Assembly: GCA_019747655.1 (NCBI GenBank)
Contig: JAIEQO010000635.1
Span: forward strand, 1-33,375
Reading direction: 5' to 3'
DNA length: 33,375 nt
DNA from: Gemmataceae bacterium
GTDB taxonomy: Bacteria; Planctomycetota; Planctomycetia; Gemmatales; Gemmataceae
Shown here: positions 13,740-14,848 of the stretch, piece by piece
Numbering within the stretch: position 1 is the first letter of the stretch
Layout of the letters: each line of letters begins with the position of its first letter
Notes under the pieces: model-generated
Database searches by the model: none
Told to the model about the DNA's origin: nothing
What the model saw: the letters and a program-made list of their open reading frames with translations, nothing else
Position numbers and translations under genes: made by a program

Positions 13740-13759
13740 CACAGGCAAGAATGCCTGTG
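13740..13759. repeat. short hairpin cacaggca-agaa-tgcctgtg
   Basis: 8-bp perfect stem, 22 nt downstream of the GT2 stop. Confidence 0.55.
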
Positions 13760-13781: not shown

Positions 13782-14732
13782 TTACCCGGTCGCCGCCCGC
13801 AGCCGGCCCAGCAGCCACGGCAGGAACTGCCCCTCCTGCCACCGCCGCACGGCCTTGCCGGCCAGGACCGCCGCGTGCCGGGGCAGGTATCTCAGCCGGT
13901 CCCGGCCGCGGGTGTTCCGCCAGAACACCCGCTCCTCGTTGCACGACTGCTGTTCGAGCGTCCGCCGCGGGGGCCGCTTCCCGTAGCTACCGGACACCCG
14001 GTGCCAGACTCTCACCGCCGGGTCGTAGAGGATTTCGTACCCGAGCCGGCGGAGCCGGAACGACAGGTCCACGTCCTCGAAGTACGCCCGGAAGTGCTCG
14101 GGGAACCCGCCGGCCTTCAGCAGCGCCTCGCGGCGGTAGAAGCCGGCCGCGGCACTCACACCCCAGACCGGACCGGGCGATTGGAGATTGGAGATTTGTG
14201 ATTGGCGATTTGAAACCGGCCGCGCTGCTGGCGATCCATTCTCTTCTTCAATCTTCAATCTCAAATCATCAATCTCCAACCCCCCGCCCCGCTTCCGCGC
14301 GAACCCGCCCGGGTCGTACTCGTCGCCGGCGGTGTCGATCACCGGTGGCAGCCCGCGTGCGACCCGCCCCGGGTCGTGCCGCAGCACGAGAGGCGCGACC
14401 GCCCCGACCCGGGGGTCGGCGAACCAACGCAGGGCGGTCTCGGCCCAGCCTTCCGTGACCTCGGCGTCGTCGTTGAGCAACTCGACCACCGGGGCCGTGG
14501 CCGCCGCGATGCCGGCGTTCGCGGCCACGCAGAACCCGCCCGGCTTCGGCCGCCGCACGACCGCCACCCCGGCGAACTCGGCCGCGGCGAGTGAGACTGC
14601 CCCGCCCCGCGAGCCGTCGTCGACGACGACCACCTCGGTCTCGGTCGGCGCGAACCGCGTGACGCTGGCGAGGCAGAGCCGGAGCAGGTCGGGGCGGGAA
14701 TGGGAGGGGATGACGATCGACAGGGCCGGCAT
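13782..14732 (-). CDS. GT2 family glycosyltransferase with an in-frame palindromic insert
   Basis: MPALSIVIPSHSRPDLLRLCLASVTRF...VVVVDDGSRGG...VELLNDDAEVTEGW...GVSAAAGFYRREALLKAGGFPEHFRAYFEDVDLSFRLRRLGYEI. Confidence 0.92.
   Translation of the reverse strand: MPALSIVIPSHSRPDLLRLCLASVTRFAPTETEVVVVDDGSRGGAVSLAAAEFAGVAVVRRPKPGGFCVAANAGIAAATAPVVELLNDDAEVTEGWAETALRWFADPRVGAVAPLVLRHDPGRVARGLPPVIDTAGDEYDPGGFARKRGGGLEIDDLRLKIEEENGSPAARPVSNRQSQISNLQSPGPVWGVSAAAGFYRREALLKAGGFPEHFRAYFEDVDLSFRLRRLGYEILYDPAVRVWHRVSGSYGKRPPRRTLEQQSCNEERVFWRNTRGRDRLRYLPRHAAVLAGKAVRRWQEGQFLPWLLGRLRAATG
14179..14280. repeat. in-frame low-GC palindromic element inside the GT2 gene (E6)
   Basis: gattggagattggagatttgtgattggcgatttgaaa versus reverse complement of ttcttcaatcttcaatctcaaatcatcaatctccaac; encodes LEIDDLRLKIEEENGSPAARPVSNRQSQISNLQSP. 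Confidence 0.88.
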
Positions 14733-14736
14733 GGCG

Positions 14737-14848
14737 CGACCCGGGGTTTCACCCCGGGCTACGATGTGCGACCCCTTCGGGGTCATTGGGTTTGGTTCCG
14801 CAGCCTGAAGGGCTGCCACAGCATAGCCCGGGGTGAAACCCCGGGTCG
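14737..14848. repeat. palindromic element, family A (E7)
   Basis: 25-bp perfect arms 14737-14761/14824-14848 (cgacccggggtttcaccccgggcta). Confidence 0.92.

Follow-up and report, generated by a model that had tools for sequence, protein, structure and literature searches.

The glycosyltransferase gene examined here, from a Gemmataceae bacterium, carries in frame a palindrome of about 100 bp that we conclude to be a non-autonomous (MITE-like) element of the S23/IVS class, RPE-like in its behaviour. We put at roughly 0.7 the probability that this insert is an ORF-less, in-frame member of a class of mobile elements whose complete form consists of an arm, an IVP/S23 ORF and the inverted arm. The copy in the window (the whole analysed stretch of 33,375 nucleotides) has only a short loop in place of the IVP/S23 ORF that the complete form has between its arms, and the arms of the window copy are inverted tandem arrays of 6-8 bp words like those of the cognate IVP element in the same genome.

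A heptad-armed palindrome in a glycosyltransferase gene

The element spans positions 14179..14281 and lies in frame on the minus strand. It starts with an arm of five GATTNNN heptads on the plus strand (14179..14213; GATTGGA GATTGGA GATTTGT GATTGGC GATTTGA), continues with a 36-nt loop of 61% GC (14214..14249), whose sequence and length differ in the other copies, and ends with the inverted arm on the minus strand (14250..14281), composed of four AATCNNN heptads and a degenerate fifth. The arms are therefore of a tandem-heptad type, with GATTNNN repeated five times on one side and its reverse complement (NNNAATC) four times on the other, and they are 79% complementary across 42 nt. The GC content of the palindrome is 45% (40% and 34% in the arms) versus 71% and 78% in its flanks, and the minimum free energy of its RNA fold is -44.8 kcal/mol versus -28.5 +/- 3.1 for shuffled sequences (z = -5.2; none of 200 shuffles equalled it). 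These values agree with the initial annotation, which described a low-GC palindrome of about 100 bp with arms roughly three-quarters complementary; the palindrome itself stands, but the arms had been taken as plain sequence and their tandem heptads had gone unnoticed. With up to 3 mismatches allowed, the heptad pattern has 7 matches in the window, all of them inside the insert, against an expectation of 0.03. An Rfam scan of the insert gave nothing above the gathering score, and its sub-threshold matches were to microRNA models only and correspond to chance.

The host gene (13782..14732, minus strand) encodes a family-2 glycosyltransferase (GT2) of 316 aa, recognised by Pfam as Glycos_transf_2, and is interrupted in frame after GFARKRGGG. 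As had been proposed, the minus-strand reading frame remains open across 14179-14281 and translates without a stop into the peptide ...DPGGFARKRGGG LEIDDLRLKIEEENGSPAARPVSNRQSQISNLQSP GPVWGVSAAAGFYRREAL..., and alignment with more distant GT2 homologues showed that the linker at this position is about 25 residues shorter in them. Judged from the position of this linker in the alignment, the insert is a putative surface loop of the enzyme; PDB homologues did not serve to map it, as their matches end before the insert except for one, which is weak. No target-site duplication or direct repeat was seen at the ends of the element. Neither an exact empty site nor a target duplication could be recovered from orthologues, since the sister species (G004) holds an unrelated palindrome at the same place in its GT2 gene and the other relatives are too distant.

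Other structures were noted in the window. A second, different palindrome (CGACCCGGGGTTTCACCCCGGGCTA..., 14737-14848), with 45-nt arms that are 87% complementary, immediately precedes the GT2 start codon, a short palindrome-like stretch (CACAGGCAAGAATGCCTGTG, 13740-13759) is located downstream of the GT2 stop codon, and a low-GC stretch near 10.6 kb is intergenic and contains an ordinary short hairpin.

Gene-less copies and the ORF-carrying form

Searching the whole 7.3-Mb assembly (G000) with the element and the heptad pattern yielded about 17 GATTNNN loci, so that the window copy is accompanied by about 16 further ones, as the initial annotation had anticipated. These copies have the word in common and different loops, of 18-55 nt as measured. 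Five protein genes of the genome carry in-frame copies, which adds at least 4 coding insertions to that in GT2 and substantiates the proposal of a dispersed element that inserts in frame: besides GT2, they encode an HpnE-like flavin oxidase, a polyketide-type ketosynthase, a NuoG/FdhA-like protein and a kinase-receiver hybrid (HpnE and the receiver half were identified by eye). Their encoded peptides resemble one another (xIxDLRLxI...QSQIxNLKS), since an array repeats its phase every three heptads, or 21 nt, so that each of the three frames yields the same seven-residue cycle. Other species also have in-frame copies, in a DUF1549 protein (G018), in a polyketide carrier-protein linker (G057, assigned by eye) and in a protein of G040, while a Ser/Thr kinase of G001 carries one with another word between HRDLKPSN and DFG. 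A copy that lies within a psuG-like gene (G002) is apparently out of frame, and the share of in-frame copies is biased upwards because the coding ones were found through open frames. The other copies have no spanning ORF or lie at gene junctions, including those of ribosomal-protein operons; heptad palindromes were found between ribosomal-protein genes at L003 and L011 (G000:C972) and at L208 (genes named by eye). Opposite arms pair at their variable positions with a frequency of 0.505 versus 0.36 by chance (p 0.0025), indicating that stem and word are both kept.

Two side observations concern other genomes. G040 (L061) has 86 pattern matches, several with a near-identical loop (GGAAGAAAAGCACTTCTTC), which are perhaps a recently amplified set, and no PF05635 gene was found in this 82% complete genome. 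A reversed control pattern, CTAANNNCTAA...TTAGNNNTTAG, gave 48 matches in G071 and 5 in G094, which apparently represent a further inverted repeat family of the heptad type in family f6.

The ORF-carrying form lies on contig C397 (L091) of the same genome, where two arms of GATTNNN heptads, the same as those of the window element, are separated by about 410 bp and flank a 23S_rRNA_IVP/S23 four-helix-bundle gene (TIGR02436, E=3e-19; PF05635, E=1e-11). In total, the genome has seven PF05635 genes, mostly placed between inverted short-tandem arrays of their own words, such as GGACAGA, AAGTCNTC and AATGACC. Inverted short-tandem arms are general at IVP genes. Among 116 IVP loci examined in G000 and its relatives, 98 were scored for arms with a fixed score, and arms were present at 82% of these Gemmataceae and related loci versus 15% of random placements. 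The same was observed at 71 of 80 named IVP loci from Acidobacteria, Verrucomicrobia, Bacteroidota, Proteobacteria, Nitrospirae, Clostridia, spirochaetes, an ANME-1 archaeon and candidate phyla, versus 1 of 136 random placements (0.7%) in the same loci; random placements replaced an earlier null that was inflated by word-sharing loci. The dominant word period at these arms is 7, with periods of 8 and 6 also present and clustering on the tree, and the number of words per arm is variable, roughly 4-8. A fixed number of exactly five words per arm was considered and is unsupported, the method being blind below four words. No nuclease, recombinase or reverse transcriptase is encoded in the elements that were read.

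Coupling of words to proteins and reuse of insertion sites

Next, we compared the words with the proteins that they flank. Within an element, the two arms have words in common with a Jaccard index of 0.50, versus 0.05 with other elements, a difference partly favoured by arm selection because word overlap enters the score. Word similarity between genomes drops with IVP distance from 0.32 to 0.05, and similarity within a genome is barely above that between genomes (0.078 vs 0.069); words follow the IVP phylogeny (Mantel r = -0.38, p = 0.0005), and GATTNNN words are largely confined to one IVP clade. GATT palindromes (at least 3 matches) were present in 9 of 10 genomes with a GATT-clade IVP versus 5 of 55 without one (Fisher 6e-7, a hand-made tally and a statistic that ignores kinship). 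A prediction made beforehand, that the word of two G005 IVPs (L141 and L193, with GGGATGA and AAGGATG arms) would also occur in gene-less palindromes, led to 7 distinct ones in G005; across the 17 genomes searched (G005 and 16 others), 13 had none, G000 among them, and a single locus was found in each of G045, G001 and G002. In G015, where an IVP has GGGATGA arms, the prediction failed, as matching palindromes were not found. These results indicate that gene-less palindromes tend to accompany the cognate IVP, against which speak G015 and also G040, with its many pattern matches and no PF05635 gene found. The coupling of word and protein could also arise if arms and ORF are simply inherited together and nothing is bound.

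In the sister species, the corresponding positions in the GT2, NuoG-like and HpnE genes are each occupied by another insert, which indicates that insertion sites are reused or rewritten. The inserts in its GT2 and NuoG-like genes are strong hairpins, and the former belongs to a GC-rich GAGCGTGAGCGAGGGG hairpin family without heptad words that has 27 copies in G000 and 5 in G004 (loci L336, L338 and L340 in G000, and L213 at G004:C1182:2502-2540). At the HpnE site, G002 and G003 have yet other inserts, and G001, G005 and more distant genomes have none. Two junctions, whose gene names were assigned by eye, extend the comparison to complete elements: the moxR-DUF58 junction (L107, L108, L157, L182, L187, L192) harbours IVP elements of different clades and words across Gemmataceae-like genomes, whereas at the HPPD-FAH junction three species have retained related IVPs of the GATT type. 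Either few positions both tolerate and attract insertions, or new palindromes overwrite old ones. Neither transposition nor a precise empty/filled pair at the nucleotide level was seen.

Competing explanations, known systems and a proposed mechanism

The most serious competitor, which we regard as unlikely, is that the insert is an REP/RPE-like palindrome moved by an unrelated transposase, for example a REP-associated tyrosine transposase, and that it shares with IVP elements just a preference for tandem-word arms. The existence in the genome of at least 1 other palindrome family lacking heptad words (the 27-copy hairpins), together with the occupation of the same GT2 site by different families in G000 and G004, speaks in its favour, whereas the identity of the window word with that of an IVP element in the genome, the co-occurrence with the cognate IVP clade and the finding of the predicted second word in G005 all argue against it. 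Clearly less probable is that the arrays are satellite-like heptamer expansions at hairpins, produced by replication slippage and template switching without dedicated mobile machinery, where IVP genes are merely located. Tandem repeats do expand readily, word number per arm varies and heptamer number differs among Coxiella strains (PMC4990558), but such expansions fit poorly with arms at nearly nine-tenths of IVP genes across phyla and at hardly any random placements, with words that track the IVP clade and not the genome, and with dispersed copies that combine a common word with different loops and sites.

The remaining alternatives concern the peptide. It is about as improbable as satellite expansion, if not slightly more so, that splicing or an IVS-like excision by RNase III removes the insert from the mRNA, so that the peptide is never made: RNase III does excise rRNA IVSs (PMC4990558) and the RNA fold of the insert is strong, but the five coding copies of the genome keep the frame and are free of stops, even if they were found by their open frames, and a cut without ligation would break the mRNA. 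That the extra residues are ancestral protein sequence, palindromic by accident, is scarcely credible and was rejected. Extra residues are indeed present at the same position in G004, but there they derive from an unrelated palindrome, more distant GT2 homologues are without them, and the same peptide pattern recurs in unrelated proteins. Taken together, we continue to favour an ORF-less member of the IVP/S23 element class.

RPEs are palindromes of about 100 bp that insert in frame in protein genes and exist in many copies. The window element resembles them as a multicopy palindrome of the 100-150 bp range lying in frame in protein genes, and differs, in a comparison made by description, in that its tandem-heptad arms connect it to an IVP-coding element and the relatives searched group with planctomycetes. 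No evidence was found for the kinship with Rickettsia RPEs suggested at first, and the closest relatives found are heptad-armed IVP/S23 elements. Like MITEs, the element is short, lacks an ORF, has inverted repeats and many copies and is paralleled by an ORF-carrying element; unlike them, it comes with no transposase (its relative on C397 encodes an IVP) and no target duplication was found, and its arms are word arrays instead of fixed terminal sequences. Avd of diversity-generating retroelements is a pentameric four-helix bundle related to IVP, but neither a reverse transcriptase nor a pair of template and variable repeats was noticed beside the IVP elements read.

The 23S rRNA IVSs of Coxiella, Leptospira and Brucella (PF05635 / TIGR02436) share with the class described here a long stem of inverted arms and, in the complete form, an S23/IVP ORF in the loop, whereas the window copy lacks an ORF, sits in a GT2 gene instead of a 23S rRNA helix, and leaves the reading frame open. 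The Coxiella IVS is bounded by a stem, contains an S23p ORF preceded by tandem GACAGAT heptamers and is excised by RNase III, and Xanthomonas S23p is a homopentameric torus (PMC4990558), in line with the five chains in each of PDB 2gsc and 2rld. The combination of heptamers, S23p ORF and stem in Coxiella with a pentameric S23p thus supports placing rRNA IVSs in the same class. Dispersed heptad arrays like those of the window family are also known as GGGANTN heptamers in Xanthomonas, often as inverted pairs, of which there are 70-75 (PMC4692102), and as the TAACTGA heptamers of Beggiatoaceae/cyanobacteria, which are abundant in Beggiatoaceae (PMC4679880). S23 is absent from the main texts of both papers, and we suggest that these heptamers may be linked to S23/IVP. 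The general, word-specific heptad-arm architecture with dispersed gene-less copies was not described in the papers found in the open-licence literature.

In the mechanism that we propose, the arms, each a run of roughly 4-8 tandem words of 6-8 bp, usually 7, flank the ORF of the S23 four-helix bundle, and classical 23S rRNA intervening sequences would be the members lodged in rRNA. The S23 protein, a homopentameric ring in a solved relative, would read the word array either on single-stranded DNA or on the transcript once folded, each subunit perhaps taking one word. It would thereby single out its own element, and any ORF-less copy that shares the word, to be copied to new sites, the copying itself being done by host or other enzymes. 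Insertions would survive at gene junctions, or inside genes if the frame stays open, and 7-nt words yield the same 7-residue peptide cycle in any frame. The data support the element class and the coupling of word and protein, whereas word binding by the pentamer, mobilisation in trans and movement driven by IVP are what we infer. We give even odds to a broader reading, namely that S23/IVP genes across bacteria and at least 1 archaeon constitute an unrecognised class of tiny mobile elements whose pentameric ring recognises the cognate arm words, that dispersed heptad palindromes, including those described for Xanthomonas and Beggiatoaceae and left unexplained there, are their non-autonomous copies, and that different elements and palindromes replace one another at the same permissive sites within genes.

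The S23/IVP protein, which has been described without a known function (PMC4990558), thereby gains a ligand that can be put to the test, namely its own word array, together with a role that is equally testable. The same framework offers a possible reason for the recurrence of S23/IVP genes across phyla and a possible source for the puzzling heptamer repeats of several genomes. It also shows that small palindromes become parts of proteins in a second setting besides Rickettsiales, here with a word length of 7 that makes the resulting peptide nearly independent of the frame.
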